From positions 4,223,501 through 4,287,500 of the forward strand of contig NC_060106.1 of assembly GCF_021155765.1 (NCBI RefSeq): DNA of 64,000 nt. The letters run 5' to 3'. Positions 20,587 through 53,187 of the stretch are shown piece after piece. The stretch comes from Diprion similis (lineage: Eukaryota > Arthropoda > Insecta > Hymenoptera > Diprionidae). How positions within the stretch are numbered: position 1 is the stretch's first letter; every line of letters begins with the position of its first letter. The notes beneath the pieces are model-generated. The model saw only the letters and a list, made by a program, of their open reading frames with translations, was not told the origin of the DNA and did not search any database. Both the position numbers and the translations under genes were made by a program.

Positions 20587-23500
20587 ATGTCTTCATCAGA
20601 TCGGGAAAATAACTCACCACCGTCACGGACGACTGGAAATTTGATGCAGTACCTTGCAACGCTCTCAGGTAAGTGGTCGCGGTATGATATCGAGAGTATT
20701 TATCACGTTTAAAATTCATCCCACGTTGATCATCCAAATAATGAATCCCGCTACTATGTGAGGGCATTTTTCTTCGCTCTGTCATCAACTTGCTGAGTTT
20801 ATCACCACATAGAGATCGGAGAAGCAGAGGCTCTACCGATTTCTCAAAAGTCTGTTCGGCGCAAATTTAATGAGAAATTACATCATCTTCTCATTCTTCT
20901 CGACAAAGTTTCATCGCACTAATGGTCGCATCTACGTACGGACGGCAAGAAGTGAATCATTCCATTTATTTTAAATACCGCAAAGCTAGGAATACAACGG
21001 TCCATAACCATCCAAAGTGGCATAAGAATTCTGGCGATTGGATTTAATGATTATGAACATAGAATGATGTGAAAACACAGGGATTCAGATGTCAGTGATT
21101 TCACAATTTGTGTCTTCATGCAAAGACACACCGTTTGTTAAAAATGTTCAATATTCGTCATCAAACTTCGCCATTACGTAACTCGTCTTTCTACGTGCCA
21201 ATGAAATGCATAAAAGTACTCAAGTCCAGTCAAATAAGGTAAAATAAAAAGATTAACCGGTAAAAAAACTGGCTTTTGGTAAACGAGCTTACTAAAGCTT
21301 CCGGATGAGAATACCAAATTTTCGAATCAATACATATTGCTCTGAAGCCGCCATTTTAGAAAGATGGTACAATTTTTTAGTTTTTCGTCTGTATCTCGTG
21401 AACTGTCACTGATATTGGAGAAATAGTTCCTAATATACAGGCAAAAAACTAAAAAAATGTACTTTTTTCCAAGATGGTGGCTCGAGCGCAACAGGTATCG
21501 ATTCGGAATTTCGCTAGGCTCATCCGGAAGCCTTAATGAGCTTGTACACAGAAATCCAGACTTTTACCGGTTCATGTTTTCATTTAGCGAAAATTGGTCT
21601 AATATCACTGGACTACTTCTCAATAAGTGTCAATCGTGTAGCTGGATCAAACTTGGGTGGTGTTTGAAGGGCCTATTCCCTCGTAGCATTTAAACTTTTG
21701 AAATTGAAAATGACCGAGACAGTGAATGACCGTATTAAACGAATGAATACGCTTAATCGTAGCTACCCTGGCCGCGGTGACTGCTGGCAACTATCTCGGC
21801 TGGTCATCCCCGGCTCTTCCACTCTACAACCAAAAGGATACACTAACCTTGGCCGATGACGACAAGTCGTGGGTCGGATCCTTGCTCCCGCTGGGAGCTC
21901 TCGTGGGTGCCATTCCTGCCGGATGGATAGCCGATAAAGTAGGACGCAAAAACGCCATACTGACGATTGGCGTACCTTATGTAATTTGCTGGTTCATCAT
22001 AGGATTTGCACCAAGCGCTTTATGGTAACCGATTGAAATTTATTTCAAATTTTTGCTGTTTACCTTTTCAACTGACTTATGTGACCACCTGGCTCTCGAT
22101 ATAGTGCACAATGCCAATTGATAATCGAATTTTGTGATCTGTCAGATCGTCTGAAGCTCGTTTCAATGCTGTACGAGGCCATTGAGGTCTGGGTACCTTC
22201 TTGAAGGAGAACTACATTTTTCATTGCATTATTTTCCATCGATTTATACTGAGTGATTGAGTTAAGTCGAACTCCAAACAAGGTGGACCAAGTAATCAGT
22301 AAACAGGGATCGAGCGGCGCGGCGTGGAAACCACACGTCTTACAGTAATTACTTTACGAATCGTTAATGTAGTTTTTCTATATTCGAAACAGGTTGTTCG
22401 TGGCTCGCTTTTTGGCTGGAGCTGCAATCGGGGCAACGACAGTCGTAGTGCCGTTGTACGTGTCTGAAATTGCGGAGCCAGCTATTCGAGGTACTCTTGG
22501 TGCGTTGTTCCAGCTCCAGATCACGATTGGCGTTTCGCTGGGGTATTTGACAGGTAAAACGTTATTTTTATACTTCATGCTACAAGCTGACAAGAACCTT
22601 CGTATCGTCGTTGATATTTTTTTTCTTCCTGAATGGAAGTTCGTCGTATGTCTACGATTATTGGGACCTTTTGACATCGGTTATGATATCGAATACGCCT
22701 GATGATGAATCCAAGTATCTTTTTTCGCGCAAAATACGATCATTGCGACTTTGAATCGGTAAAAATTGAATTGAAAAAGTTGGTCAAACTATTCGGGTTA
22801 TTTCGTTCTTGTTACCCCCTTTATTTTTGAAGTTATGTCGGGCTAGAGCCAAAAAAGAAAGGTGGACCGATGGTTGGTACCCGAGGGTATCACTCGAGTC
22901 GTCAAATATTAGTATTCGAGTTTATTGAAAACATCCGGGTTCTCTGATGCAATTTCAAACCTTTCCGTGTATACGTGGCGATAAAAATTCAATTTACATG
23001 GAGGGGGATAAAAGAGGTCAATAGTGAATAAAGACGTGCAGGCATTTGGATTTGCCGTATATTGGACCACGGAAAAACAACAGCTAGAACCCTGTGCAGT
23101 CTATGCCATGGTTTGGACAATTTTTTTTTTATCTTGGTAGAAATGGGTTATAACCTAATTTCAATGTCCACCGGTGATTGCGGCGCTCCAGAGTTAATGA
23201 ACCATGCTAGATCTCGTAACACTGTATAATCATATTTTTATTTGCATTCAACAGTTGAGGTTTTTATTTTTCGTATCAGAACTATCATTCGGAAGGTTTC
23301 ACATGATTTAACAGTTATTTATTTCCTCGCCGTAATTTTTAAGCATCTACGTTGGAATAAATATTGCTTTAGACCAAAAAAATTGACCGATGAAAATGTT
23401 AATGGCGTGAACATTTTTATTTCAAATGCTTTACGGCGATACGTGGAGTTTTATCGTCAAATAATTTATGATTCTACCCACGTTGTAAAATTCGCACCAG

Positions 23501-26500
23501 ACGCGGAAGAATGATACGAGGCTGAGAGATAGATTGTTGCTTGGGCTGGAAGAAAAAATAAAAACTAACAAATTTACGACTATCCATGTATAATGTGTCT
23601 ATAATTAAACACTTATCACAGTCATTTTACTGCCAAAATCCTCAATAAATGTCCGATCCTTCGTTATCTCTCATAATTTACGACTCAGTTTATACGTATG
23701 TTTTTCTAAGAAATGTTCAATTGATAGAAAAAGGGTATATGTATAGGGCAGATGAATGCGGCATAATGAATCCCGTTCGGTAACATTAAAATTATTGAGC
23801 CATACAAACACATCGATTCGATTTATTGATCGTTTTCGAATGTGAATCATGGTTGGTCGGACTGAAGGCATTGGATCCCGTCTGCAACCATATAATGTCA
23901 GAATAAATTTCAGCTACTTTTATGATTGTGTTCGAAATCGATCGAAGAAACCTGCGCGTATCGCGCCGCGTTTAAGATAACTCGACCCCTGATCTAATTC
24001 TAAGAAATGCTCTCTTGCGGCAGGTTTGATCGGAAATTTGAAATGGATCGCCGTCACCTCAGCCTTCATACCGGCGGCTCTGCTACTGGTTTTTCTGTTC
24101 ATGCCGGAGACGCCGGTGTGGTTGATCGGCCAAGATCGTCGAGATGACGCGGAGCGAGCCATGGAGCGATTGAGGGGCAAAAGTTACCCTTTTCAGCAGG
24201 AGCTTGCGCAGCTCGAGAGCAATAGAAAATCTCAGAGGATGCAGAAGGCCAGCCTTTCCGAGCTTAAGAATCATAAAAGGGCCGTGCTGATATCTTTCGG
24301 TGAGTTCGTGGTTATTCAATCACGCTTTGAGTTTTTATGGTTTGACGCCCTCCAATTTCCTCCTTCAGGACTTATGGTTCTCCAACAACTGTCTGGAATA
24401 AATGCCGTAATCTTCTACGCCGAGGAACTTTTCAAAGCTGAAGGATCGGCCCTCAGCCCAACGGTATGCACAAGCATCATGGGTGTCGGCCAGGTCTTCG
24501 CAACCGGCGTATCCATGCTGCTGGTCGACAAAGCCGGCCGCCGAATTCTTCTCATGGCCAGTTCCAGCGTCATGGGTGTCTGTCTTATTGCCGTCGCCCT
24601 GCATTTCTATTTTCAGGTGAGTTTTATTATGATTTGATCAACGAACGAAGCGAAAGTGAGGCTGTAGCCAGGATGCGGAAGAATTACAGGATTGTCGCGA
24701 ATTTCCATAAATAGACACGACAATTTTATCTCATTATATTTTATGTCATAGTTGAATGGCAAGTTCTATTACGAGTATCATACAGTCGAGTCTTTCAATA
24801 GGACCTCTCGCAATAGGGCAGCTTCCTCTCAAGAGAGCTCAGCGGTTTCCCCCACTACTCCAGGTAAACAAACCGCAGCCGAAATTTTGCCAGGTACTCT
24901 CGCAATGGGGCCGGAAACATAAGTGAAATGCTGGAAAAAATAGCGTAGCTGTTATGGACTTTGGGCGGCCCTATTGCGCGAGTCTCAGTTCAAAGCGCTG
25001 TAAGAGCACGTGGAGCTCGTTGGTGGGAGTGTACTAATTATTACAAATGCTCTCCCGTACGCCCCCACCACCGGTCCTATTGAGAGAGTCGACTTCAGTT
25101 ACAAACCAGCAGCTAGAGGAAAGCAAGTGGCTTTGGACTGGTCATCAGCCGGTCCTCGAACTTTCCGTTCTCACACGGGAGATTGAAAGGTCACAAAGAA
25201 AAAAAAAATATTCAATTAGAATTTTGAACTGAAGATTCAGATTCGTGATCAACAATTTCAAAGCTTTCGACAACCATATTGTTTCAAAATTTTACGTTTT
25301 TTTCATTTTTTGAACCACTATGATGGTTCCATCATTACAAATTTTGGAAGTCTGGCCTGGGATTCGATATCAGTGATCCAAAACACCTTTTAGAATGTTT
25401 TCCACCCCATTGGATCGCCGGATTTTCCAATCTGATTTTAGATTCGTGTTCAGCCACCCACCAAGCCGACGAGTGCTAATTTTCGTTCGAATCCATTCAT
25501 TCATTTTCAAGACATCTTCATTTTTTGGGGATTATTTGAAATTCCATCTAAAAAATTGAAAAATTAGTGAACCGCTCAAAGCCAATATCTAATCAGTTCT
25601 AATCACGAAGAAGCCGCTTAGATTGAGACCAAAATCATTAAAGTCCGGTAACGTCTTCTTGAGATATCGTCAGGCAAAACAAATTGATCACACACATGCA
25701 CACAAAATTTCGAAATCTCGAATCTCGAAGCTTCGAGATCTAGTGAAAATTCGTCTTTTCATTTTCGGGGTGATTACAGTAACTTTCTTTTTCCTGAAAA
25801 CAGAGAAATGGGAAGTTAGCGAAACAAAATGGTAATCAAGTATAATTGGTTTATGGTGAAATTGTACGTTTATAAAGAGTGTACTTTCTACAGCGTCTGG
25901 TCTATCGATAAGTTCGTTGGAAATCCTAGATATAGAGCAACCGATGCGGATCTCGCGCGACAAAATCAAAATTGGCAAGATGCAATTCATTTCGTCTGAC
26001 GGAAGTATAAATATAACTTGACTTTGAGCAGCTCCAACAACTAGAGCTGAGGTCTCACTGGAAACGTTTCTAACCTGACGAAAATGAGACGTTGAACCAA
26101 CTCGATATAAGATATAGTTGTGATGAAATTCATTTGATATACGTCAGGCCTTGAAAATAGCTTTGAATACTTGCTGGATCAGTAAAATCATTTTATGGAA
26201 CTTGCATGCCTGCTCAGTGTTTCGATTTAAAATCTTAATCGCTGGCTTTAATCGGATATACGCACCAACATGACATTTGCATAACTCATTATACGCATAT
26301 CTAGACGACAAGTAGAGAATCTACTACCGAAATCCATTCACCATGTTTTATGTTCTTTCCGACCAGGCGGGAGTACAATCGACCGGCACTCCATGGGTGC
26401 CTCTGATATTCTTCACGATCTACATAATCATGTTCGCTATCGGATTCGGACCAGTGCCTTGGATTATGGTGAACGAAGTCTCGCCGACCAACGTCGTGGG

Positions 26501-26765
26501 CACAATCGGTTCCGCGGCAGCGATGTTGAATTGGTCGCTGGCCTTCGCTGTGACAAAGATTTTCATCAACATGAAACTCGCCATTGGCTTGCCGCTGTCA
26601 TTTGGCATGTTCGCATTGATATGCTTAAGCGGGACTATTTTCATCGCGGCTATCATACCGGAAACAAAGGGCAGGACCAAGGAGGAAATTCAGATGAAAC
26701 TACATCGGATGAGGAAAATGGAAACGAAAAACGACACCGTCATTAACGACCAGGCTATGCTGTGA
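20587..26765 (+). CDS. Tret1-like: Tret1-like facilitated trehalose/sugar transporter, copy A (475 aa)
   Basis: This is a predicted plasma-membrane MFS sugar carrier (SLC2 family) with 12 membrane segments. Insect Tret1 proteins move trehalose down its gradient; the substrate here is inferred. Exons are 20587-20668, 21763-22024, 22393-22553, 24024-24299, 24369-24616 and 26367-26765; all phases match and all introns are GT-AG. Family motifs seen: DKVGRK (residues 85-90), a RFLAGAAIG helix followed by VSEIAEPAIRG, PETPVW (196-201), QQLSGINAVIFY (266-277), DKAGRR, GFGPVPW (369-375) and PETKGRT (from 441). Length is normal for the family. It is the first unit of a four-unit tandem array. Exon 2 is identical in protein to B and C, and exons 4-6 are almost identical to C. 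The end of exon 3 differs from B and C and looks more like D. Confidence 0.95.
21255..21572. repeat. Palindromic (foldback) element in intron 1 of copy A
   Basis: The left arm (AACCGGTAAAA, CTTCCGGATGAG) is repeated inverted in the right arm (CTCATCCGGAAGCC, TTTTACCGGTT), so most of this 320 bp stretch could fold on itself. Related copies occupy the same place in copies B (about 30236-30534) and C (about 37484-37783). Confidence 0.65.
24784..25094. mobile_element. MITE-like element in intron 5 of copy A
   Basis: The left end CAGTCGAGTCTTTCAATAGG mirrors the right end CCTATTGAGAGAGTCGACTT. The length is about 310 bp with no coding capacity. The CAGTCGA start is reminiscent of pogo/Tigger-type (Tc1-mariner) ends; that assignment is an inference. 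A matching copy lies at 41611-41922 in copy C, so insertion predates the A/C duplication. Confidence 0.55.
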
Positions 26766-28952
26766 TCTACTAACGATCGTCAGGGTATTACGGAAGCACG
26801 GGATATGATAAGAGGGAATGGAATGGGATAAATTCGACTGACGAAAAAGACGTTTATTGCTCATCCCCGGAAAAACAACGCAAAATCAAGATTCTCGTTT
26901 TGAGCAGAAAAACCGGATCCTTCCTTTATCATGTTGATGGGGTCCCATGCTATCCAATATCACACTGTTGGCCCTCATGGTCCCTTTCGTTTTGTAACGC
27001 AGGCTCTCTTACCGTGGACTCTTCTTCTCTACAGATATACAAACGACCTAAAACTCGGGCCAAAAAAGATAACTCTGAATTGGGGTTGTAGCTTGAATTG
27101 TTGCCAAAGTACGTACAGAAGATTCATTTCTTCTACTTTCAGACCTGAATCTCGTCTCTTATCGCATTGCTTGTTGCACTGAGAAAATTTCATTCCATTC
27201 CTGATCTAATTCACCCGGGGTCGATACGATCCCAGAAACTTATATCTTTCTTATGGGACGAAAAATAACAGTGACCACGAAGGGTTAGCGAAAGTTCTCT
27301 CTGTGTTTCTGTTATTCTTTTCTTCCCATCGTTTTCCAATAAAAAGGAAATTCGAAACAATTACCTTATCACCGCCGTCGTATTCCTTGGATTCCACTAG
27401 GTGCAGATCCTTCAATGCACTTGGGTCAAGGATCTCAGCTGAATAGAAATTCACTCTCCAATTGTGGTTATCACCAATTACGATTTTTGTTCATTTTCAC
27501 TGGCAATTGCACATGAGTGTTACTCCTGAAATGATTATTTTGCGTTGAGGAAGATGTGAAAAATTAAATATGTTTTTTTCTCATTTGTAAAAGTCCGAAT
27601 GACTCGTACAATTAGGACAATTTGATATGGAATAATTACCCCATGAATATATATATAATCTGATTAATTGAGTTTAATAGATCTATAGAACATAGTATTG
27701 CCAAAAAAATATCACAAACCTTTTGTCGTAACTTTATCATTAGTATATGTGAACATTGTCGATTCTACAGAGATCATTAAATATATTAGATTCAATTGAA
27801 TATTGAAAACGGAAACGCTTAGAAGTGAAATTACATTTAAGACCATGCTAATTCTCACGTACTTACGTGCCGATTTTAGGTGACTGGAAAGATATAATGT
27901 TCTTTTCAAAATAAAGCATTTTGTATATTTACAAATGAAGTTGTTGGGCGTTGCCTCAGCATCACGCTGAGACGTAAGAATAAAACTGCATTTTTCGATT
28001 TAAATGAAAAACGTTTTATGCGGAAATTGGAGGTGCCGTTTTAACTCGTTACGCTATTAGATAATTTGATTATGTAGAGGAAAAATTTTTGGGTGTCAAA
28101 CGGAGCAAAATATTGGTTTATGTGATTCAGGAGAAAACGAATCCTTCCTCTGCACACAGTTTCTCAAAAAACATTCTTGGTCAAAGTATTCAGGGAAAAA
28201 GTTCAAACAACACATGATTATCAGGGAACAAAAAATAAATTACACGCGAAATCATCTTTTCAGGTGAATCACCCAAGTACCGGTTATTCCTGGAAAATGA
28301 GGCATATGTCTGACTGTGTATCTACAGTTGTAATTCTTTGCGATTTAGGTGTTTTTCCGTATACGGGGATAGCGTAAGACCCGGAAGACATGCCGATCGC
28401 AAGAAGGATTTTCGCACGTCACATTTTCAGGAAATAACATATATATCATGTACATAGATATAATTACACGTACGTATATTTTATACCTACGTAAAATAAC
28501 TCTAAGCTTAATTAACGTGATTGTATAGACAGATGTACAGTGTAATTTACTAATGACAGTAAACCAAAAATTGGTATACGTAATCACTATATTTCGGTAA
28601 TTGTGTTGTTTTTATTTAATAACTATAACCTTTTTTACCTGTTGCCATGCGGTACAGGACTTTTTTATTAGATAGAGAGACAGGCTTCACTTTAAAACAA
28701 GGAGAGCAAAAGATGGAGTATTACCTGCATATCTGCTTATTAGCTTAAACAAATATGGAAGCCTTATAATAATAACACCGTCATTAAGATCATGCGTTTT
28801 TGGTATGAGATAACAGCTAAGAATAGCGAAATCATTATAAAATCAAGTGATTAAGCGGAATCCGTATTTATCGTTTCGAATAGTTTCTCAATACACTGCC
28901 ACTATCAATATCTATTCAATCCGTAGTGCGGTTATCAATGGTCCGCAATTGA
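26766..28952 (+). repeat. Duplicated 3' flank of transporter copy A
   Basis: There is no complete gene here. AATAAA at 27338-27343 is a candidate poly(A) signal. From about 27650 to 28950 the sequence recurs at about 34330-35640, and more distantly at about 44480-45300. It includes a decayed version of the orphan frame at 44930: its first codons match, then TAA interrupts it near 28609. The repeat runs directly into the promoter of copy B. Confidence 0.7.
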
Positions 28953-28962
28953 GGTAACCCCG

Positions 28963-28970
28963 TATATAAG
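28963..28970 (+). promoter_or_regulatory. TATA box of transporter copy B
   Basis: TATATAAG lies in the same promoter block as copies A and C. The upstream TGACCTCAA-type element of A and D is absent; the sequence just upstream is the 3' flank of copy A ending CCGCAATTGAGG. The ATG is at 29210. Confidence 0.6.
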
Positions 28971-29209
28971 AGTGTACGAAATGCACGGCGGCTTCGTAGC
29001 GGTAACGAACCCTTCGTGAGTGCGGCAATAGCAACCGCGACAATTTTATCTCGAGAGAAATTGAACAAGTCTACGGTAGAATTGCTTCCTGATTTTTGCT
29101 TATCTTGTTTTTTCGTGTGCCTCTGAATCGCCTTGAGTAAAACCGTTTATACGGAACGTTTGTATTTTGAGTTACACACTTTTATGTTCGTGAGCGTTGT
29201 GGGTTAAAA

Positions 29210-31516
29210 ATGTCTTCATTGATACAGAAAAATAACTCACCACCGTCACAGACGACTCAAAAGTTGATGCAGTATCTTGCAACGCTCTCAGGTAAGTGGT
29301 CGCGGTATGATATCGAAAATATTTATAACGTTTAAAATTCATCCCACGTTGATTCCCACGGGGACTTTATTTCTGACTCAACTCTGGCCACACCCATTGA
29401 CTCAAAAAGTGGGAATCACACACGCACAGAAGCTGAGTGTTCTATGTCGACCGCAGAGCGAACATTCGGTTGGTATCTTTTTTGGGCAGTTTGTGTTTGC
29501 TGTTTAGCATTTTGCCCTGATTGGGGTTCAGCTAAGCCCGATACCGACTTTAACGTACAATTTTTGAGTCAACGCGCTTGAATCAGGGTTACTTCTGAAA
29601 ATTGATGGAATAAATGGTGGGGTCCAGTTGACCCCAATACCAATTTTAACATACTTGAAGTCAGCGAGTTTGATTCGTGGTTGTGCTAGTAAAATGTAAA
29701 TGAAAAAACAATTTTGGTGTCTCATAGATCCCATGTATATATTGCATATTCTTTTGTCACTTTTTTGTGTTAAAAAATTTCTCCCACATCTCGTTCCACA
29801 TTGTCTATCGTTTGTTTTCTAAAGCTTACATTCGAGTACATTCGCGGAGCGGGTCCAGGGCCGCAGGCCCTGTATGGTGTGGGTCGAAGGGGCGAAGTCA
29901 TCATCATTATCATTATCGACATCATCATCGTTATCATATTCTATCGTGTAATTATTCTATTATATTTCTATTTTGCGGGGAAAACGAGATTAACGGGAAC
30001 AAAGTCTACTTTTTTCCCGCAAATCTCATTTTTCCTGCATTTAGCGCTAGGGAAAAAAGTTAAGCGAGAAAAATATGCCACTTTCGTCCCGCTTTTCAGT
30101 TAACTTTACGGCTGAGTCGGAAATAAATGTTCATGATTCGTCATGAAACTTCGCCATTACGTAACTCGTCTTCCTTTATGACAATGAGGAGCATTAGGGT
30201 ACTCTAGTCCAGTCATATTAGGAAAAATAAAAACTTTAACCAGTTTAAGATCTGGATTTTGGTATACAAGTTTATTAAGGCTTCCGGATGAACATACTAA
30301 GTTTTCGAGTAAATACCTAGTCAAAAAGGCACACTTTCATAGTTTTTCACTTGTACCCGGGAAACTATTACTGAGATCGGAGAAATGGTTCCCGACATAC
30401 CGGCGAAAAACTAAAAAAATGTACCTTTTTTCCAGGATGAAGGCTCGAGCGCAGCAGGTATCAGTTGGGAAATTGAGTATGTTCATCCGGAAGCCATAAG
30501 AAGCTTGTACACAGAAATCCAGATGTTTACCTTTTAATGTTTTTCTTTGTCGAAAATTGGTCTAATATGACTGGACTACTTCTCAATAAGTGTCAATCGT
30601 GTTGCTGGATCAAACTTGGGTTGTGTTTGAAGGGCCTATTCCCCCGTAGCATTTAAACTTTTGAAATTGAAAATGACCGAGACAGTGAATGACCGTATTA
30701 AACGAATGAATACGCTTAATCGTAGCTACCCTGGCCGCGGTGACTGCTGGCAACTATCTCGGCTGGTCATCCCCGGCTCTTCCACTCTACAACCAAAAGG
30801 ATACACTAACCTTGGCCGATGACGACAAGTCGTGGGTCGGATCCTTGCTCCCGCTGGGAGCTCTCGTGGGTGCCATTCCTGCCGGATGGATAGCCGATAA
30901 AGTAGGACGCAAAAACGCCATACTGACGATTGGCGTACCTTATGTAATTTGCTGGTTCATCATAGGATTTGCACCAAGCGCTTTATGGTAACCGATTGAA
31001 ATTTATTTCAAATTTTTGCTGTTTACCTTTTCAACTGACTTATGTGACCACCTGGCTCTCGATATAGTGCACAATGCCAATTGATAATCGAATTTTGTGA
31101 TCTGTCAGATCGTCTGAAGCTCGTTTCAATGCTGTTCGAGGCCATTGAGGTCTGGGTACCTTCTTGAAGGAGAACTACATTTTTCGTTGCATTATTTTCC
31201 GTCGATTCATACTGAGTGATTGAGTTAAGTCGAACTCCAAACAAGGTGGACCAAGTAATCAGTAAACAGGGATCGAGCGGCGCGGCGTGGAAACCACACG
31301 TCTTACAGTAATTACTTTACGAATCGTTAATGTAGTTTTTCTATATTCGAAACAGGTTGTTCGTGGCTCGCTTTTTGGCTGGAGCTGCAATCGGGGCAAC
31401 GACAGTGGTAGTGCCGTTGTACGTGTCCGAAGTTGCGGAGCCAGCCATTCGAGGCACGCTTGGTGCGTTGTTCCAACTCCAGTTATCCTTTGGCATTTTG
31501 CTGGTATATTTGACAG
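29210..31516 (+). pseudogene. Truncated Tret1-like transporter, copy B (exons 1-3 only)
   Basis: Exons 29210-29291, 30726-30987 and 31356-31516 are intact, with good splice sites and no stop. They encode the N-terminal 169 residues (about four to five membrane segments, DKVGRK included). Exons 4-6 are missing: intron-3 sequence homologous to copy C stops at about 33195, where an LTR-like sequence begins, and beyond it comes the 3' flank of the array. Alone this cannot make a 12-helix carrier. Reading into intron 3 stops at 31620 and would give 202 residues. The exon 3 donor is intact, so splicing to exons 4-6 of copy C (from 40853) is conceivable. Intron 1 is shorter than in C. I call it a truncated pseudogene, with a possible role as an alternative 5' cassette. 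Confidence 0.75.
30236..30534. repeat. Palindromic element in intron 1 of copy B
   Basis: This is the counterpart of the foldback element in copy A. CTTCCGGATGAAC and its inverse GTTCATCCGGAAGCC mark the two arms. Confidence 0.6.
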
Positions 31517-33195
31517 GTAAAACGTTATTTCTACACTTTCTGTTACAAGCTGACAAGAACCTTCGTGTCCACGTTGATATTTCATCTCTCCCTGAGTGGA
31601 AATTTGTCGAATGGATATAATTATTGGGACTTTATGGCATCGTTAATGATATCAAATTTACATGTAATGTGTCCTGAAAGTGAAAGCGCTCAAAGTTAAC
31701 CCTTGTATTGCTTCTAATGTCATTCACACACTGGAGTTGCTCATTTTCGATTTTTGCGTATAAGTCGCACTCTTAGCAAAAATTTTTAAATCCTTGCTCT
31801 ATCTTGGCTCGGCAAACATTTTTGCAATTTACTCAAGTGTTATACAAGAAATTTAACAAGTGTCCGGACATTAGTTCCAACCGATTACATTCGAAGGTTA
31901 TGGCGCATTCCGGAAAATAACGTAATTTTTACTTTAAGAATCAAATCCATTTTGTCAATTGCTTTAAGTTCTGCAATTTTTTCCACCAAAAACTCAAAAT
32001 TTGTTACGATTATCCTAGTGAGCCACATTGCGGCGGAACTTGAGTGAAATTGTTTCGAGGCAGGAAAAAATTACTAGACGATATTTTTGCGTTGAGGTTC
32101 TGATTTATACATATATCTACATTTCATTGGAATCCGCCGTTTCATTTATCCTTTTCCTTGTTTCCTTTCTATCTTCTAATTAACGATACAAACAAAATCT
32201 CCCATCCAAGGGATCGTGCCTACCCCAACGTTTGTTTTTTCGCATTATTCTTTGGAGTAAACAGCTTGGATGCAACTGGTGGTCAAGTACAGAAAAACAA
32301 TTAATAAAAATGACGCAGATCTGTAAAGTGAGTACACAGAAGCTCTTCGAAGCTTGAGCGCAAGGAATGTATTCTAACGGCAGCTATTTTTTGTTTTGTC
32401 TGGCCAAAAAGCTGGATTAAGTGAGGAGTGCTTCAAATACGCCTGATAATGAATCCGAGTATCTTTTTTCGGTCAAAATACGATCATTGCGACTTTGAAT
32501 CCGTCAGAATTTAATTGAAAAAGTTGGTCAAACTATTCTGGTTATCTTGTCCTTGTTGACCCATCTATTTCCCAAGTTATGTCGGACTCAAGTCAAAGGA
32601 GAAGGGTGAACCGATGGTTCGGTACCCGAGGGTATCACTCGAGTCATCAAATATTAGGCCTCGAGTTTATTAAAATCATCCGAGATCTCTGATAAAATTC
32701 CAAAACTTTCCGAGTGTAGATGGCGATAAAAATTCAATTCGTACGAGGGGGGGGGGGAGGTGAACAGTAATTAAAGCATGCTGGCTGATGAATTTGCCGT
32801 ACATTGGACCGTGAAAAAACAATAGTGCTAACCCTGTGCAGTTTATGCCATTTTTTTGACGGTATTTTTTTTCTATCGTGATGAAATGGGTTATCGCCTA
32901 ATTCCATTAATCGCCGGTGATTGCGGTGCTGCAGAGTCAATGAACCATGCTAGATCTCGTCTAATTATATAATGATATTTTTATTCGCACTCACCAGTTG
33001 AGGTTTTCATTTTTCGTATCAGAACTATCACTCGGAAGGTTTTACATGATTTCACAGTTATTTATTTTTGTCGCCAAAATTTTTAAGCATCTATGTCGGA
33101 ACAAATATCGCTTTGTAGCAGCAAAATTGACCAATGAAAACGTTAATTACGTGGTCATTTTTATTTCAAATTCTTTATTACGGCGATACACTTAA

Positions 33196-34027
33196 TGTTG
33201 TGTCCCACACGACACTTTAGTGGAGTGAGGGTATTCAATTTAAGAGAAATTGTTCTGGTATTGTTTTTAGAACTTAACTATTTATTTACAAGTTAATATG
33301 AGCGGTTAATAAGATATGTTTATAATTCGTTGACTGGATAGTTCGTTAAAAACAGATATTGGATTGGTATTTGAAACGGTTAGGTATTCGTTGCTTGAGG
33401 TCTTGATAGGATTGTTGGTGGTTGATGTCTCGACGGGAACTGACTGTGTTAAAGTAAAGTAAGAAAGAATGTGAAGGAGTTTTAAGAAATGTGGAGGGTG
33501 TAGGAGTTTACTGATTCGTCAGTTTTCCCTATTGGTTGATTATTGCGATTGGTGGGAATCCAGGATTGGTCAAGAAATTGCATCGGAAGTCTTGGTTATA
33601 GGGATGAAAAGTTTGTATGTAGGAGGAGAGTGGGAGCATGCAGGTATGACCTATGCTTGAACAATACGTGATCCTTTCGGACTTTCGCGTACCTATTGTC
33701 CAGACAGGCCAGCGTCCACATCTGGCAGCCAACTGACTATTGATAATTGGTAAAAACCCAGGGGTAATGAAGTAGTGAAAAACCCGCGCTGGTAGTTCCA
33801 TACGACCCTTAGACGGTTCATTTATTGCGCGATATTTGGTATATTGTTTAGGGTCGCAGTTCCTTCAGCGCGGTCTTGTATTGCCAGATGTGGGACTGCT
33901 GTCCTTTCCAGACAGCTCGATATAGCTTGGGAACCACCGTCCAGGAAAATCCCAGCCGTATAAAATATATGGATTAAAATTGAATAGTTGGTTAATTGTA
34001 TAAATTGGATTGTGTTGATACGCAACA
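33196..34027 (-). mobile_element. Solo-LTR-like element replacing exons 4-6 of copy B
   Basis: This 832 bp block starts TGTTGTGTCCCACACGACAC and ends GATACGCAACA, so both ends form the TG...CA inverted pair (TGTTG/CAACA) typical of LTRs. On the minus strand a TATA-like motif lies early (TTTTATACGG) and AATAAA lies late, the order expected of an LTR. No other copy is seen in the window, and no internal retroelement genes flank it. The flanks are not homologous: left is intron 3 sequence, right is array 3' flank. No target-site duplication is seen (CTTAA against GTTGT). The superfamily is not assigned. Confidence 0.55.
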
Positions 34028-35640
34028 GTTGTAACTCTTTGCGAATTAGGTGTTTTTCCGTATACGAGGATAGCGTAAGACCCGGAAGACATGCCGAACG
34101 CAAGAAAGATTTTCGCACGTCACACTTCCACGAAATAACATATATATCATGTACATAGATATAATTACACGTGCGTATATTTTATACCTACGTAAAATAA
34201 CTCTAAGCTTAATTAACGTGATTGTATAGACAGATGTACAGTGTAATTTACTAATGACAGTAAACCAAAAATTGGTATACGTAATCACTATATTTCAGTA
34301 ATTGTGTTGTTTTTATTTAATAACTATTCTTTTCTAAAATAATATATAATCTGATTAATTGAGTTTATTGGATCTATAGAACATAGTATTGCCAAAAGAA
34401 TATCACAAACCTTTTGTCGTAACTTTAATCATTAGTATATGTGAACATCGTCGATTCTACAGGGTTCATTAAATGTATTAGATTCAATTGAATATTGAAA
34501 ACGGAAACGCTTAGACGTGAAATTACATTTAAGACCATGCTAATTCTCACGTACTTACGTGCCGATTTTATGTGACTGGAAAAATATAATGTTCTTTTCA
34601 AAATAAAGCATTTTGCATATTTTCAAATGAAATTATTGGGCATCGCCTCAGCATCACGTTGAGACGTAAGAATGAAATTGCATTTTTCGATTCAAATGAA
34701 AAACGTTTTATGCGGAAATTGGAGGTGCCGTTTTAGCTCGTTACGTCATTAGATGATTTGATTATGTAGAGGAAAAATTTTTGGGTTTCAAACGGAGCAA
34801 AATATTGGTTCATGTGATTCAGGAGAAAACGAATCCTTCCTCTGCACACAGTTTCTCAAAAAACATTCTTGGTTAAAGTATTTAGGGAACAAGTTCAAAC
34901 AACACATTATTATCAGGGAACAAAAAATAAATTACACGCGAAATCATCTTTTCAGGTAAATCACCCAAGTACCGGTTATTCCTGGGAAATGAGGCATATG
35001 TCCGACTGTGTATCTACATTTGTAACTCTTTGCGATTTAGGTGTTTTTCCGTATACGAGGATAGCGTAAGACCCGGAAGACATGCCGATCGCAAGAAAGA
35101 TTTTCGCACGTCACACTTCCACGGAATAACATATATATCATGTACATAGATATAATTACACGTACGTATATTTTATACCTACGTAAAATAACTCTAAGCT
35201 TAATTAACGTGATTGTATAGACAGATGTACAGTGTAATTTACTAATGACAGTAAACTAAAAATTGGTATACGTAATCACTATATTTCGGTAATTGTGTTG
35301 TTTTTATTTAATAACTATTCTTTTTTACCTGTTGCCATGCGGTACAGGCCTTTTTTATTAGATAGAGAGACAGGCTTTACTTTAAAACAAGGAGAGCAAA
35401 AGATGGAGTATTGCCTGCATATCTGCTTATTAGCTTAAACAAATATGGAAGCCTTATAATAATAACACCGTCATTAAGATCATGCGTTTTTGGTATGAGA
35501 TAACAGCTAAGAATAGCGAAATCATTATAAAATCAAGTAATTGAGCGGAATCCGTATTTATCGTTTCGAATAGTTTCTCAATACACTGCCACTATCAATA
35601 TCTATTCAATCCGTAGTGCGGTTATCAATGGTCCGCAATT
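34028..35640 (+). repeat. Array 3' flank with an internal partial repeat
   Basis: The stretch from about 34028 to 34327 is repeated almost exactly at about 35016-35326, and both match 28328-28626 after copy A. From 34330 the longer flank repeat (as at 27650) begins and runs to the promoter of copy C. It holds two decayed copies of the orphan frame found intact at 44930. No functional gene is supported. Confidence 0.65.
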
Positions 35641-35652
35641 GAGGTAACCCCG

Positions 35653-35660
35653 TATATAAG
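35653..35660 (+). promoter_or_regulatory. TATA box of transporter copy C
   Basis: TATATAAG with leader sequence nearly identical to copy B. The ATG is at 35900. The TGACCT element of copies A and D is missing. Confidence 0.6.
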
Positions 35661-35899
35661 AGTGTACGAAATGCACGGCGGCTTCGTAGCGGTAACGAAC
35701 CCTTCGTGAGTGCGGCAATAGCAACCGCGACAATTTTATCTCGAGAGAAATTGAACAAGTCTACGGTAGAATTGCTTCCTGATTTTTGCTTATCTTGTTT
35801 TTTCGTGTGCCTCTGAATCGCCTTGAGTAAAACCGTTTATACGGAACGTTTGTATTTTGAGTTACATACTTCTATGTTCGTGAGCGTTGTGGGTTAAAA

Positions 35900-38800
35900 A
35901 TGTCTTCATTAATACAGAAAAATAACTCACCACCGTCACAGACGACTCAAAAGTTGATGCAGTATCTTGCAACGCTCTCAGGTAAGTGGTCGCGGTATGA
36001 TATCGAAAATATTTATCACGTTTAAAATTCATCCCACGTTGATCATCCTCGAACTGGAGGATTTTCGAAGACCGAGAAAGGTGAAATAACGAATCCCGCT
36101 ATTACATGAGGGCATTTTCTTTCGCTGTGTCATCAACTTGCTGAGTTTATCACCACATAGAGATCGGAGAAGCAGAGGCTCTGCCGATTTCTCGAAAGTC
36201 TGTTCGGCGCAAATTTAATAAAAAATTACATCATCTTCTCATTCTTCTCGACAAAGTTTCATCGCACTAATGGTCGCATTCACGTACGGACGACAAGAAG
36301 TGAATTATTCCATTTATTTTAAATACCGTAAAGCTAGGAATACAACGGTACATAACCATCCAAAGTGGCATTAGAATTCTGGCGATTAGATTTAATGATT
36401 AAAAACAAAGAATTACGTGAAAACATAAGTACTAAACACAAGGATACAGATGTCAGTAATTTCACAATTTATGTCTTTATGCAAAAACACACCGTTCGTC
36501 AAAATAGTACATTATGTAACAGGGGAATAAAGTCGGAGATAATAACCGCGGGTGGGCTTACTAGTAATCACCTGAAGGAATAATCGACTCCCAATCCTGT
36601 GTTTCATATAGGACTTTATTTCTGACTCAACTCTGGCCACACCCATTGACTCAAAAAGTGGGAATCACTCACGCACAGAAGCTGAGTGTTCTATGTCGAC
36701 CGCAGAGCGAACGTTCGGTTGGTATCTTTTTTGGGCAGTGTGTTTGCTGTTTAGCATTTTGCCCTGATTGGGGTTCAGTTAAGCCCGATACCGACTTTAA
36801 CGTACAATTTTTGAGTCAACGCGCTTGAATCAGGGTTACTTCTGAAAATTGATGGAATAAATAGTGGGGTCCAGTTGACCCCAATACCAATTTTAACATA
36901 CTTGAAGTCAGCGAGTTTGAATCGTGGTTGTGCTAGTAAAATGTAAATGAAAAAACAATTTTGGTGTCTCATAGATCCCATGTATATATTGCATATTCTT
37001 TTGTCACTTTTTTGTGTTAAAAAATTTCTCCCACATCTCGTTCCACATTGTCCATCGTTTGTTTTCTAAAGCTTACATTCGAGTACATTCGCGGAGCGGG
37101 TCCAGGGCCGCAGGCCTTGTATGGTGTGTCTCTAAGGGGCGAAGTCATCATCATTATCATTATCGACATCATCATCGTTAGCATATTCTATCGTGTAATT
37201 ATTCTATCATACTTCTATTTTGCGGGGAAAACGAGATTAACGGGAACAAAGTCTACTTTTTTCCCGCAAATCTCATTTTTCCTGCATTTAGCGCTAGGGA
37301 AAAAAGTTAAGCGAGAAAAATATGCCACTTTCGTCCCGCTTTTCAGTCAACTTTACGGCTGAGTCGGAAATAAATGTTCATGATTCGTCATGAAACTTCG
37401 CCATTACGTAACTCGTCTTTCTTTATGACAATGAGGAGCATTAAGGTACTCTAGTCCAGTCAAATTAGGAAAAATAAAAACTTTAACCAGTTTAAGATCT
37501 TGATTTTGGTATACAAGTTTATTAAGGCTTCCGGATGAACATACTAAGTTTTCGAGTAAATACCTAGTCAAAAAGGCAAACTTTCATAGTCTTTCACTTG
37601 TACCCGGGAAACTATTACTGAGATCGGAGAAATGGTTCCCGACATACCGGCGAAAAACTAAAAAAATGTACCTTTTTTCCAGGATGAAGGCTCGAGCGCA
37701 ACAGGTATCAGTTGGGAAATTGAGTATGTTCATCCGGAAGCCATAATAAGCTTGTACACAGAAATCCAGATGTTTACCTTTTAATGTTTTTCTTTGTCGA
37801 AAATTGGTCTAATATGACTGGACTACTTCTCAATAAGTGTCAATCGTGTTGCTGGATCAAACTTGGGTTGTGTTTGAAGGGCCTATTCCCCCGTAGCATT
37901 TCAACTTTTGAAATTGAAAATGACCGAGACAGTGAATGACCGTATTAAACGAATGAATACGCTTAATCGTAGCTACCCTGGCCGCGGTGACTGCTGGCAA
38001 CTATCTCGGCTGGTCATCCCCGGCTCTTCCACTCTACAACCAAAAGGATACACTAACCTTGGCCGATGACGACAAGTCGTGGGTCGGATCCTTGCTCCCG
38101 CTGGGAGCTCTCGTGGGTGCCATTCCTGCCGGATGGATAGCCGATAAAGTAGGACGCAAGAACGCCATACTGACGATTGGCGTACCTTATGTAATTTGCT
38201 GGTTCATCATAGGATTTGCACCAAGCGCTTTATGGTAACCGATTGAAATTTATTTCAAATTTTTGCTGTTTACCTTTTCAACTGACTTATGTGACCACCT
38301 GGCTCTCGATATAGTGCACAATGCCAATTGATAATCGAATTTTGTGATCTGTCAGATCGTCTGAAGCTCGTTTCAATGCTGTTCGAGGCCATTGAGGTCT
38401 GGGTACCTTCTTGAAGGAGAACTACATTTTTCGTTGCATTATTTTCCGTCGATTCATACTGAGTGATTGAGTTAAGTCGAACTCCAAACAAGGTGGACCA
38501 AGTAATCGGCATACAGGGTTCAAGCGGCGCGGCGGGGAAACCACACGTCTTACAGTAATTACTTTGCGAATCGTTAATGTAGTTTTTCTATGTTCACGGT
38601 GAAACAGGTTGCTCGTAGCTCGATTTTTGGCTGGAGCTGCAATCGGGGCAACGACAGTGGTAGTGCCGTTGTACGTGTCCGAAGTTGCGGAGCCAGCCAT
38701 TCGAGGCACGCTTGGTGCGTTGTTCCAACTCCAGTTATCCTTTGGCATTTTGCTGGTATATTTGACAGGTAAAACGTTATTTCTACACTTTCTGTTACAA

Positions 38801-41800
38801 GCTGACAAGAACCTTCGTGTCCTCGTTGATATTTCATCTCTCCCTGAGTGGAAATTTGTCGAATGGATATAATTATTGGGACTTTATGGCATCGTTAATG
38901 ATATCAAATTTACATGTAATGTGTCCTGAAAGTGAAAGCGCTCAAAGTTAACCCTTGTATTGCTTCTAATGTCATTCACACACTGGAGTTGCTCATTTTC
39001 GATTTTTGCGTATAAGTCGCACTCTTAGCAAAAATTTTTAAATCCTTGCTCTATCTTGGCTCGGCAAACATTTTTGCAATTTACTCAAGTGTTATACAAG
39101 AAATTTAACAAGTGTCCGGACATTAGTTCCAACCGATTACATTCGAAGGTTATGGCGCATTCCGGAAAATAACGTAATTTTTACTTTAAGAATCAAATCC
39201 ATTTTGTCAATTGCTTTAAGTTCTGCAATTTTTTTCACCAAAAACTCAAAATTTGTTACGATTATCCTAGTGAGCCACATTGCGGCGGAACTTGAGTGAA
39301 ATTGTTTCGAGGCAGGAAAAAATTACTAGACGATATTTTTGCGTTGAGGTTCTGATTTATACATATATCTACATTTCATTCGAATCCGCCGTTTCATTTA
39401 TCCTTTTCCTTGTTTCCTCTCTATCTTCTAATTAACGATACAAACAAAATCTCCCATCCAAGGGATCGTGCCTACCCCAACGTTTGTTTTTTCGCATTAT
39501 TCTTTGGAGTAAACAGCTTGGATGCAACTGGTGGTCAAGTACAGAAAAACAATTAATAAAAATGACGCAGATCTGTAAAGTGAGTACACAGAAGCTCTTC
39601 GAAGCTTGAGCGCAAGGAATATATTCTAACGGCAGCTATTTTTTTTTTTGTCTGGCCAAAAAGCTGAGATTAAGTGAGGAATGCTTCAAATACGCCTGAT
39701 AATGAATCGGAGTATCTTTTTTCGGTCAAAATACGATCATTGCGACTTTGAATGCGTCAGAATTTAATTGAAAAAGTTGGTCAAACTATTCCGGTTATCT
39801 TGTCCTTGTTACCCCCTCTATTTCCCAAGTTATGTCGGACTCAAGTCAAAGGAGAAGGGTGGACCGATGGTTCGGTACCCGAGGGTATCACTCGAGTCAT
39901 CAAATATTAGGCCTCGAGTTTATTAAAATCATCCGAGATCTCTGATAAAATTCCAAAACTTTCCGAGTGTAGATGGCGATAAAAATTCAATTCGTACGAG
40001 GGGGGGGAGGTGAACAGTAATTAAAGCATGCTGGCTGATGAATTTGCCGTACATTGGACCGTGGAAAAACAATAGTCATAACCCTGTGCAGTTTATGCCA
40101 TTTTTTTAACGGTATTTTTTTTCTATCTTGATGAAATGGGTTATAGCCTAATTCCATTGACCGCCGGTGATTGCGGTGCTGCAGAGTCAATGAACCATGC
40201 TAGATCTCGTCTAATTATATAATGATATTTTTATTTGCACTCACCAGTTGAGGTTTTTATTTTTCGTATCAGAACTATCACTCGGAAGGTTTTACGTGAT
40301 TTCACAGTTATTTATTTTTGTCGCCAAAATTTTTAAGCATCTATGTCGGAACAAATATCGCTTTGCAGCAGCAAAATTGACCAATGAAAACGTTAATTAC
40401 GTGGTCATTTTCATTTAAAATTCTTTATTACGGCGATACACTTATCATAGTCATTTTACTGCCAAAATCCTCAATAAATGTCCGATCCTTCGTTATCTCT
40501 CATAATTTACGACTCGGTTTATACGTATGTTTTTTTAAGAAATGTTTAATTGATAGAAAAAGGGTATATGTATAAGGCAGATGAATGCGGCATAATGAAT
40601 CCCGTTCGGTAACATTAAAATTATTGAGCCATACAAACACATCGATTCGATTTATTGATCGTTTTCGAATGTGAATCATGGTTGGTCGGACTGAAGGCAT
40701 TGGATCCCGTCTGCAACCATATAATGTCAGAATAAATTTCAGCTACTTTTATGATTGTGTTCGAAATCGATCGAAGAAACCTGCGCGTATCGCGCCGCGT
40801 TTAAGATAACTCGACCCCTGATCTAATTCTAAGAAATGCTCTCTTGCGGCAGGTTTGATCGGAAATTTGAAATGGATCGCCGTCACCTCAGCTTTCATAC
40901 CGGCGGCTCTGCTACTGGTTTTTCTGTTCATGCCGGAGACGCCGGTGTGGTTGATCGGCCAAGATCGTCGAGATGACGCGGAGCGAGCCATGGAGCGATT
41001 GAGGGGCAAAAGTTACCCTTTTCAGCAGGAGCTTGCGCAGCTCGAGAGCAATAGAAAATCTCAGAGGATGCAGAAGGCCAGCCTTTCCGAGCTTAAGAAT
41101 CATAAAAGGGCCGTGCTGATATCTTTCGGTGAGTTCGTGGTTATTCAATCACGCTGTGAGTTTTTATGGTTTGACGCCCTCCAATTTCCTCCTTCAGGAC
41201 TTATGGTTCTCCAACAACTGTCTGGAATAAATGCCGTAATCTTCTACGCCGAGGAACTTTTCAAAGCTGAAGGATCGGCCCTCAGCCCAACGGTATGCAC
41301 AAGCATCATGGGTGTCGGCCAGGTCTTCGCAACCGGCGTATCCATGCTGCTGGTCGACAAAGCCGGCCGCCGAATTCTTCTCATGGCCAGTTCCAGCGTC
41401 ATGGGTGTCTGTCTTATTGCCGTCGCCCTGCATTTCTATTTTCAAGTGAGTTTTATTATGATTTGATCAACGAACGAAGCGAAAGTGAGGCTGTAGCCAG
41501 GATGCGGAAGAATTACAGGATTGTCGCGAATTTCCATAAATAGACTCGACAATTTTATCTCATTATGTTTTATTTCATAGTTGAATGGCAAGTTCTATTA
41601 CGAGTATCATACAGTCGAGTCTTTCAATAGGACCTCTCGCAATAGGGCAGCTTCCTCTCAAGAGAGCTCAGCGGTTTCCCCCACTACTCCAGGTAAACAA
41701 ACCGCAGCCGAAATTTTGCCAGGTACTCTCGCAATGGGGCCGGAAACATAAGTGAAATGCTGGAAAAAATAGCGTAGCTGTTATGGACTTTGGGCGGCCC

Positions 41801-43591
41801 TATTGCGCGAGTCTCAGTTCAAAGCGCTGTAAGAGCACGTGGAGCTCGTTGGTGGGAGTGTACTAATTATTACAAATGCTCTCCCGTACACCCCCACCAC
41901 CGGTCCTATTGAGAGAGTCGACTTCAGTTACAAACCAGCAGCTAGAGGAAAGCAAGTGGCTTTGGACTGGTCATCAGCCGGTCCTCGAACTTCCCGTTCT
42001 CACACGGGAGATTGAAAGGTCACAAAGAAAAAAAAAATATTCAATTAGAATTTTGAACTGAAGATTCAGATTCGTGATCAACAATTTCAAAGCTTTCGAC
42101 AACCATATTGTTTCAAAATTTTACGTTTTTTTCATTTTTTGAACCATTATGATGGTTCCATCATTACAAATTTTGGAAGTCTGGCCTGGGATTCGATATC
42201 AGTGATCCAAAACACCTTTTAGAATGTTTTCCACCCCATTGGATCGCCGGATTTTCCAATCTGATTTTAGATTCGTGTTCAGCCACCCACCAAGCCGACG
42301 AGTGCTAATTTTCGTTCGAATCCATTCATTCATTTCCAAGACATCTCCATTTTTTGGGGATTATTTGAAATTTCATCTAAAAAATTGAAAAATTAGTGAA
42401 CCGCTCAAAGCCAAAATCTAATCAGTTCTAATCACGAAGAAGCCGCTTAGATTGAGACCAAAATCATTAAAGTCCGGTAACGTCTTCTTGAGATATCGTC
42501 AGGCAAAACAAATTGATCACACACATGCACACAAAATTTCGAAATCTCGAATCTTGAAGCTTCGAGATTTAGTGAAAATTCGTCTTCTCATTTTCGGGGT
42601 GATTACAGTAGCTTTCTTTTTCCTGAAAACAGAGAAATGGGAAGTTAGCGAAACAAAATGGTAATCAAGTATAATTGGTTTACGGTGAAATTGTACGTTT
42701 ATAAAGAGTGTACTTTCTACACCGTCTGGTCTATCGATAAGTTCGTTGGAAATCCTAGATATAGAGCAACTGATGCGGATCTCGCGCGACAAAATCAAAA
42801 TTGGCAAGATGCAATTCATTTCGTCTGACCGAAGTGATGCACCTTGACTTTGAGCAGCTCCAACAACTAGAGCTGAGGTCTCACTGGAAACGTTTCAAAC
42901 CTGACGAAAATGAGACGCTGAACCAACTCGATATAAGATATAGTTGTGATGAAATTCATTTGATATACGTCAGGCCTTGAAAATAGCTTTGAATACTTGC
43001 TGGATCAGTAAAACCATTTTATGGAACTTGCATGCCTGCTCAGTGTTTCGATTTAAAATCCGAATCAGTGGCTTTAATCGGATATACGCACCAACATGAC
43101 ATTTGCATAACTCATTATACGCATATCTAGACGACAAGTAGAGAATCTACTACCGAAATCCATTCACCATGTTTTACGTTCTTTCCGATCAGGCTGGAGT
43201 ACAATCGACCGGCACTCCATGGGTGCCTCTGATATTCTTCACGATCTACATAATCATGTACGCTATCGGATTCGGACCAGTGCCTTGGATTATGGTGAAC
43301 GAAGTCTCGGCGACCAACGTCGTGGGCACAATCGGTTCCGCGGCAGCGATGTTGAATTGGTCGCTGGCCTTCGCTGTGACAAAGATTTTCATCAACATGA
43401 AACTCGCCATTGGCTTGCCGCTGTCATTTGGCATGTTCGCATTGATATGCTTAAGCGGGACTATGTTCGTCGCGGCTATCATACCGGAAACAAAGGGCAG
43501 GACCAAGGAGGAAATTCAGATGAAACTACATCGGATGAGGAAAATGGAAACGAAAAACGACACCATCATTAACGACCAGGCTATGGTGTGA
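35900..43591 (+). CDS. Tret1-like: Tret1-like facilitated trehalose/sugar transporter, copy C (475 aa)
   Basis: This is a complete SLC2/MFS sugar carrier. Exons are 35900-35981, 37973-38234, 38608-38768, 40853-41128, 41198-41445 and 43193-43591; phases match copy A exactly. Exon 1 (MSSLIQKNNSPPSQ) and the end of exon 3 (QLQLSFGILLVYLTG) match copy B. Exons 4 and 5 are identical in protein to copy A, and exon 6 is nearly so. The start of exon 3 (LLVARF, preceded by GGTGAAACAG) instead resembles copy D. Differences from A in exon 6 include Pro383 to Ala in NEVSxTN, a position where A and D both have Pro, and Val in place of the last Leu. The exon 5 end is CAA|GTGAG, where A has CAG|GTGAG. All transporter motifs (PETPVW, QQLSGIN, DKAGRR, PETKGRT) are intact. 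Confidence 0.95.
37484..37783. repeat. Palindromic element in intron 1 of copy C
   Basis: Counterpart of the foldback elements in copies A and B; closest to that of B. Confidence 0.6.
41611..41922. mobile_element. MITE-like element in intron 5 of copy C
   Basis: It has the same ends and interior as the element at 24784-25094 and sits at the same point of the intron, so it was copied with the gene. Confidence 0.55.
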
Positions 43592-44929
43592 TCTACTAAC
43601 GATCGTCAGGGCATTACGGAAGCACGGGATATGATAAGAGGGAATGGAATGGGATGAATTAGACCGACGAAAGGGACGCTTATCGCTCATCTCTTAAAAA
43701 CCAGCGAAAAATCCAAGATTCTCGTTTTAGGCGGGAAATCCGGGTCCCTCCTTTATCATGATAATGGGGTCCCATACTACCCAAAATCACACTGTTGGCC
43801 CTCGTGGTCTCTCTAGTCTTATAACTTAGGCTCTTTCACCGTGGACTCTTTTCCTGTACAGACATACGAGTGTCCTATGGCGTAGGCCCAAGATCACTCT
43901 GAATTGGGGTTGGGACTTGATTTGTTACCAAAGTACATGCGGAAGCTTCATTTCTCCTACTTTCGGACCTGAATTCTGTCTCTTTCGCATTGATTATTGT
44001 GCTGAGGAAATTTTAGTCCATTATTGATCTAATTTACCCTCCGCAGTCACCTGGGGTCGGGATGACCCCAAAAACTAATGTATTTTTTATCGGACGAAAA
44101 ATAACAGTGACCACGAAGGGTTAACGGAAGTTTCTTACTGTGTTTTTTCACATTTTTTTCCCGTTCGTATTCTTATAAAAGGGAAACCCGAAGCAATCAC
44201 CCCATCACCGCCTCCGTATTTCTTGCATTCCATTAGATGCAGATCCTCTAATGCACTTGGGTGAAGGATCTCAGCCGAATAGAAATTCACCCTTCAATTT
44301 TGGTTATCGACAATTTCGATTTTTGTCCATTTTCACTGGCTATTGTACATGAGTGTTACTCCCGAAATGATTATTTTGCATTGAGGAAAAAGTATAAAAT
44401 TAAACGTATTTTTTCTCATTTGTAAAAGTTTGAACGACTCTTACAATTCGGTTCATTCGATATGTTATAATTACACCATGAATGTATATAAACTGATTTA
44501 TCGATTTTAAGTGGATTTTTGGAACATACTATTGCCAAAAGAATGACGCAAACCTTTTGTCATAAGTTCATCATTAGTATATTGAAACAATATCGACTCT
44601 CCAGAGTTCATAAAAAACCTTCGAATCAATTGAATATTAAAAACGGAAGTGATTCGAAGCGCAATCACCCAAGTATCGGTTATTCCGTGGAAATGAGGCA
44701 CATGTCAGACTTTGTATCGACAGTTGTAACCTTCTGCGATTAAAGTGTTTCTCTTTATACGAGGATAGCGATCGTAAAAAGAATTTACGCATGTCGCACT
44801 TACAGGAAATAACCGATGTATTACGTATACATAGATATAAGTATGCCCGCGTATATGGTATACCTACGACAAATAATTGTAAGCTTAATTAAGGTGTTTG
44901 TATAGACAGATGTACAGTATAAATTACTA

Positions 44930-52900: not shown

Positions 52901-53187
52901 TCTCGCCGACAAACGTGGTGGGTTCAATCAGTGCGGCAGCGGCCATGATCAATTGGTCACTGACCTTCGTGGTTACGAAGGTTTTCATCAACCTCCAGGC
53001 CACGATCGGCCTGCCCTTGACTTTCGGTATGTTCGCCGCGTTGTGCATGATCGGCGCGATATTCGTTGCGTTTGTCGTACCGGAGACGAAGGGCAAGACG
53101 AAAGAGGAAATTCAGCTTCAACTTCACAAGATCAAGAAGGAACCGATGGAAATCTATACTATCACTATCGACCAGACTAGGCTGTGA
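46970..53187 (+). CDS. Tret1-like: Tret1-like facilitated trehalose/sugar transporter, copy D (474 aa)
   Basis: This is a complete and more diverged SLC2/MFS sugar carrier, last in the array. Exons are 46970-47048, 48336-48597, 49221-49381, 51853-52128, 52194-52441 and 52789-53187, with the same phases as A and C; exon 1 is one codon shorter. Motifs: DKFGRK after membrane segment 2, RFLSGVANG then VSEIAEPATRG, PETPVW, QQLSGINAVVFYAEELF, DKAGRR, GCGPVPW and PETKGKT. It lacks the foldback element of intron 1 and the MITE of intron 5 (intron 5 is about 350 bp, against 1.75 kb in A), so it separated before those insertions or lost them. Intron 3 carries its own inverted-repeat element. Poly(A) signal AATAAA is at 53247-53252. 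Confidence 0.95.
50845..51638. mobile_element. Terminal-inverted-repeat element in intron 3 of copy D
   Basis: The left end TATATGGCGCATTCCACGCC matches the inverted right end TATATGGGGCATTCCACACC. The length is about 790 bp, the inside is AT-rich with repeated TTTTTCAGATTTT-like strings on both strands, and there is no long frame. It looks like a non-autonomous DNA transposon; TA may be the target duplication. Confidence 0.6.

Follow-up and report, generated by a model that had tools for sequence, protein, structure and literature searches.

Gene conversion between duplicates of Drosophila melanogaster has reportedly been surveyed genome-wide, in recent duplicated blocks compared with orthologous outgroups. 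For the GOT1p1/GOT1p2 pair of Tigriopus californicus, the part of the report used here (Willett, PMC3728101) describes a mosaic of high and low divergence under ongoing gene conversion, with new sequence combinations. The portion of a review that we draw on (PMC3449122) covers how inserted mobile elements terminate conversion and how selection opposes conversion in the opsin and RH genes. Our literature search, which covered titles and abstract openings, returned no report of trehalose or sugar transporters undergoing gene conversion.

The window, meaning the whole 64-kb stretch analyzed (contig C2, positions 4223501-4287500), contains an SLC2-type sugar transporter gene of six exons in four tandem copies, designated A, B, C, and D. 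The frames of A, C, and D are open, and each of these three has six exons with GT-AG borders. The gene models are as follows:

20587..26765, + strand: gene A, intact, 475 aa; exons 20587-20668, 21763-22024, 22393-22553, 24024-24299, 24369-24616, and 26367-26765, from junctions and translation
29210..31516, + strand: gene B, 5' fragment with exons 1-3 only (29210-29291, 30726-30987, 31356-31516), frame open through the end of exon 3
35900..43591, + strand: gene C, intact, 475 aa; exons 35900-35981, 37973-38234, 38608-38768, 40853-41128, 41198-41445, and 43193-43591
46970..53187, + strand: gene D, older paralogue with an open frame; exons 46970-47048, 48336-48597, 49221-49381, 51853-52128, 52194-52441, and 52789-53187

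Protein C scored above the curated cutoff of both sugar porter (MFS) models, with 269.7 bits against TIGR00879 (cutoff 237.8) and 289.5 bits against PF00083 (cutoff 22.3). Its relatives with solved structures are GlcP, GLUT5, and GLUT1, and the array genes are presumably candidates for the name Tret1 (trehalose transporter). The genome searched comprised 269 Mb in 60 contigs; among 98 scored matches, none outside the array was as close, the best being intact single-exon genes with 37-39% identity. Other tandem transporter pairs were uninformative as a comparison (L017/L018 match at 81% over approximately the coding length only, and L015/L016 at 68%). Reading frames neighboring the array matched insect cuticle protein and Retinin-like models, which marks the genome as insect-like, and one frame with such matches carries 165-bp tandem repeats at 7586-8143.

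Genes A, B, and C are mosaics of near-identical tracts within diverged sequence. The sliding-window comparison proposed in the first-pass annotation gave, in 100-column windows, an A-C identity of approximately 80% in introns 1 and 3 and in the 3' flank. From A 23609 to approximately 26808, nearly all windows reached 96-100%, with one at 93.9% and three gap columns in total. Tracts were called with a two-state HMM, whose parameters were set after the windows had been viewed. The HMM returned A-C high-identity stretches at A 20653-21053 (94.8%), 21588-22297 (98.6%), and 23429-26829 (98.55%), and an A-B stretch at A 21588-22464 (99.0%). The start of the third tract is best taken as 23609 instead of 23429, since only 14 columns precede the gap. 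The resulting tracts, T1 to T3, are:

20653..21053, + strand: T1 in A, read as the older A-C tract, paired with C 35966-36401; end of exon 1 and intron 1, 94.8% identical, most of it deleted in B
21588..22464, + strand: T2 in A, around exon 2, common with C to 22297 (98.6%) and with B to 22464 (99.0%)
30551..31427, + strand: T2 in B
37798..38507, + strand: T2 in C
23609..26829, + strand: T3 in A, exons 4-6 including introns, paired with C 40438-43655 at 98.5% identity
40438..43655, + strand: T3 in C, left edge at ACACTTA (40438-40444), right edge in the 3' UTR

The noncoding divergence between A and C was 16.2-19.9% in three background stretches, against 1.66% in T3, 2.01% in T2, and 5.45% in T1; A and B differed by 1.47% in T2. 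Mismatches between A and C are dense up to 21587, sparse beyond it, and resume at 26830; the right edge of T3 lies between 26786 and 26830, just past the stop codon at 26765. Tract edges differ between the A-C and A-B comparisons. Near-identical tracts that run through coding and noncoding DNA, with diverged flanks on both sides, correspond to one mark of interlocus gene conversion. The first-pass annotation had attributed the array to repeated gene conversion or unequal crossing over, and tracts of 1.5-2.0% noncoding divergence in a background of 16-20% support an exchange of this kind. Its protein comparisons also stood: exon 2 encodes the same protein sequence in A, B, and C (at the DNA level A equals B, with one synonymous difference in C), and exons 4-5 of A and C encode the same residues at an offset of 16,829 (24024 to 40853, 24369 to 41198). 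Exon 6 has an offset of 16,826 and six differing residues.

Uneven purifying selection in the absence of any exchange, keeping some exons alike while others diverge, would account for the TATA-like sequence (GTATATAAGAGTGTA) found upstream of A, B, C, and D, where A, B, and C share an identical 33 bp and D is largely similar; this promoter match is best read as plain conservation. However, the introns inside the tracts are 98% identical, and synonymous divergence varies about 20-fold and more between neighboring exons (A-C dS of 0.015 in exon 2, 0.33 at the end of exon 3, 0.016 in exon 4, 0 in exon 5, and 0.011 in exon 6). The scores of the best A-C and A-B high-identity segments were reached in 0/300 permutations with all sites, and likewise 0/300 with noncoding sites only, which refutes selection as the sole cause; we assign it next to no probability.

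Three observations concern the 5' part of the genes. A palindromic repeat occupies intron 1 (A ~21220-21618, B 30183-30602, C 37430-37849) and has relatives on several contigs; its halves lie 2-5 kb apart on contigs C14 and C7, like the terminal inverted repeats of a DNA transposon, and the left edge of T2 coincides with the last bases (right end) of the repeat. In gene B, intron 1 is missing about 568 bp (29353-29362 against C 36043-36611), over most of which A matches C. Homogenization between B and C around exon 2 was considered and set aside as weak: a 600-bp window has one difference, 8/2000 permutations were as low, and the HMM called no tract.

Exon 3 carries two further discordant segments. 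At its start, A and B are alike and C resembles D, as the first-pass annotation reported; C and D read GGTGAAACAG, and A and B, without 5 bp, read TTCGAAACAG. At its end, the reported likeness of B to C (LSFGILLVYLTG) and of A (ITIGVSLGYLTG) to D (MAIGLSLGWLTG) was also found. The annotation further claimed that different segments support different trees. This was sustained at the end of exon 3, where 11 sites favor BC|AD against 0 and 0 for the other two topologies and all but BC|AD were rejected (AU p 0.001). For the 127-bp acceptor segment taken alone, the alternative topologies were not rejected (AU p 0.08). The acceptor segment contains a stretch shared by A and B only:

A 22298..22408, + strand: identical to B 31261-31371; C differs at 11 sites and keeps the 5 bp common to D

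These are 11 consecutive AB|C informative sites, flanked at 22245 and 22444 by BC|A sites; in 5000 label shuffles, runs of this kind reached at most four. Together with the 5-bp deletion common to A and B, this run is the basis for the A/B tract. Conversion between C and D was ruled out as the cause of their likeness, given that C-D identity in the segment (100/132) is no higher than A-D identity (98/127). For the same reason, the likeness of C to D is taken as retained ancestral sequence; C would then keep the older state, and therefore A and B exchanged sequence at the acceptor. The search for another donor for C found genome matches at four places only, namely A, B, C, and D. Copying from A into B is the simplest direction, and we regard it as fairly probable. 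Mutational clumping could account for part of the 11-site run, because B and C differ equally densely in intergenic DNA (12 differences in 130 bp, B 27872-28001).

The likeness of B and C extends over intergenic DNA and ends at a long terminal repeat (LTR):

27646..33194, + strand: duplicated unit (intergenic DNA and B), paired with 34338-40444, 97.9% identical
33196..34027, + strand: solo LTR ending B, 832 bp, TGTTG...CAACA, with unmatched flanks CTTAA and GTTGT
34028..34336, + strand: partial intergenic copy right of the LTR, matching 28324-28626 and 35016-35327

Identity between the units was 97.9% across 5,533 aligned sites, intergenic DNA included, with a noncoding divergence of 2.19%; about 8 bp of filler join them at the junction, and we read B and C as a tandem duplication. 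The intergenic pair 27864-28063 and 34556-34755 differs at 16/200 sites, as high as in only 2/2000 permutations, and the differences, judged by eye from the alignment, are mostly transitions. One intergenic segment occurs once per spacer (28324-28626, 35016-35327, 44720-44996), with an extra copy at 34028-34336 beside the LTR of B; the extra copy lies approximately 991 bp from its neighbor, which suggests a small tandem duplication.

After intron 3, nothing of exons 4-6 is present in B, and its homology to C stops at 33194. The LTR (query 33195-34024) had at least 47 genome matches, itself included. Among 12 other copies, nine carry a perfect 5-bp flanking duplication, and the remaining three match at 4, 4, and 3 of 5 bases; the TG...CA ends together with target-site duplications in dispersed copies identify a retrotransposon LTR. 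A simple insertion into B does not fit, as the flanks are CTTAA and GTTGT, the left one intron 3 and the right one intergenic DNA. Recombination between two LTRs, which probably removed exons 4-6 of B, would be expected to leave such flanks. An unmatched flank by itself says little, since one of the 12 other copies matches at only three of five bases.

The same unit could be an assembly artefact in which B and the LTR are a second C haplotype misplaced in tandem, leaving only the A-C exchange as real. The 97.9% identity over 5.5 kb and the filler at the unit junction fit this view. However, the 64-kb window has no N, B carries a short A-like tract and the 568-bp deletion, and an allele would be expected to retain a matching right flank. 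We consider such a misplacement very unlikely, and the tandem duplication is retained below.

The left junction of T3 bears on how C obtained its 3' half. C is B-like up to ACACTTA (40438-40444) and A-like from ACACTTA onward, so that the edge is a 7-bp microhomology, displaced by 166 bp from the in-register position in A. The offset corresponds to a segment specific to A:

23443..23608, + strand: A-specific intron 3 segment, 166 bp, without counterpart in B or C and found at one place in the genome

Regarding its origin, the genome search gave no second place and the window search no match at E 0.01. The start of T3 lies within a few bases of the intron 3 position of the LTR in B. Most simply, the ancestor of B and C would have carried the LTR there, and C would have lost it on copying from A. 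Copying from A to C is the only direction that would explain this co-location without coincidence, and on balance it is favored for exons 4-6. Distance to D was uninformative on direction, as A-D equals C-D across exons 4-6.

Unequal crossing over alone could join a B-type 5' half to an A-type 3' half by one crossover in intron 3. In agreement with such a fusion, C changes from B-like to A-like at a single intron 3 point, and the 3' half is absent from B. However, A-C identity returns to approximately 80% at A 26830, although the adjoining intergenic sequence is common to A/B and B/C. The fusion is disfavored because a crossover should bring the flank of A along, whereas the right edge of T3 is in register; it also leaves the exon 2, intron 1, and exon 3 tracts unexplained, and we give it very little weight. 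T3 lies between diverged sequence left and right, and its end in the 3' UTR is in register; we therefore attribute it to gene conversion and not to one unequal crossover.

The noncoding divergences also allow a relative timing. Compared with the B-C value of 2.19% (Fisher's test), neither T3 (p 0.15) nor T2 (A-C p 1, A-B p 0.35) was distinguishable, and T2, T3, and the B/C duplication are thus of similar age. T1, at 5.45%, differed from B-C (p 0.0004) and is taken to be older than T2 and T3.

We conclude that conversion, tandem duplication, and LTR recombination very probably shaped the array together; besides conversion, the latter two are needed to account for the B/C pair and for the truncation of B. 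The tracts with their edges, the absence of exons 4-6 from B, and the unmatched LTR flanks are observed directly, and we infer the order of events from one genome. In this order, A and the B/C ancestor would first have diverged by approximately 20%. Interlocus gene conversion would repeatedly have overwritten parts of the genes, starting with intron 1 and reaching exon 2 and exons 4-6, introns included, at a later stage. A tandem duplication would have made B and C around the time of the later tracts, and an LTR in intron 3 of B would probably have recombined with another in intergenic DNA, leaving B without exons 4-6. The copying of exons 4-6 from A to C may have proceeded by one-sided strand invasion, closed at the 7-bp ACACTTA microhomology.

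The A and C proteins differ at 21/475 residues: seven N-terminal, F117L, I141V, six at 158-165, and six in exon 6. Residues 158-165 align to helix 5, just after the glutamine of the PQL motif of GLUT5, which we take to be sugar-binding; a literature search for glucose-pocket residues in GLUT3 gave no paper. The nonsynonymous excess in codons 158-168 over 132-157 (Fisher p 0.04, from rounded counts and a split chosen post hoc) is a weak hint of selection on helix 5. A wider reading appears unlikely. In it, conversion homogenized exon 2 and exons 4-6 of A and C, while selection keeps two versions of transmembrane helix 5 as two substrate variants on a shared backbone; in addition, a break at an LTR in intron 3 of C would have been repaired by the large tract copied from A, which erased the LTR. 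Should selection indeed maintain the helix 5 difference, the array would offer a natural test of duplicate specialization under gene conversion.

Tandem paralogues that evolve in pieces would mislead an analysis with one tree per gene, and exon-based dating of the duplication would vary approximately 20-fold among exons. The process itself is well known, and the array adds a new, well-resolved instance. Like the survey of Drosophila melanogaster, it concerns conversion between recent insect duplicates; unlike that survey, the comparison is made without outgroup orthologues. As described in the part of the paper on GOT1p1/GOT1p2 used here (PMC3728101), the array is the same kind of paralogue mosaic; that pair was studied with population data, whereas the array comes from one genome, with a truncated third copy and an LTR at the breakpoint. 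Like the primate red/green opsins and RHCE/RHD, as presented in the portion of the review cited above (PMC3449122), the tandem paralogues are homogenized while functional codons still differ. For the opsins and RHCE/RHD, that portion argues selection from function, whereas in the array the unconverted end of exon 3 is a weak candidate for it.
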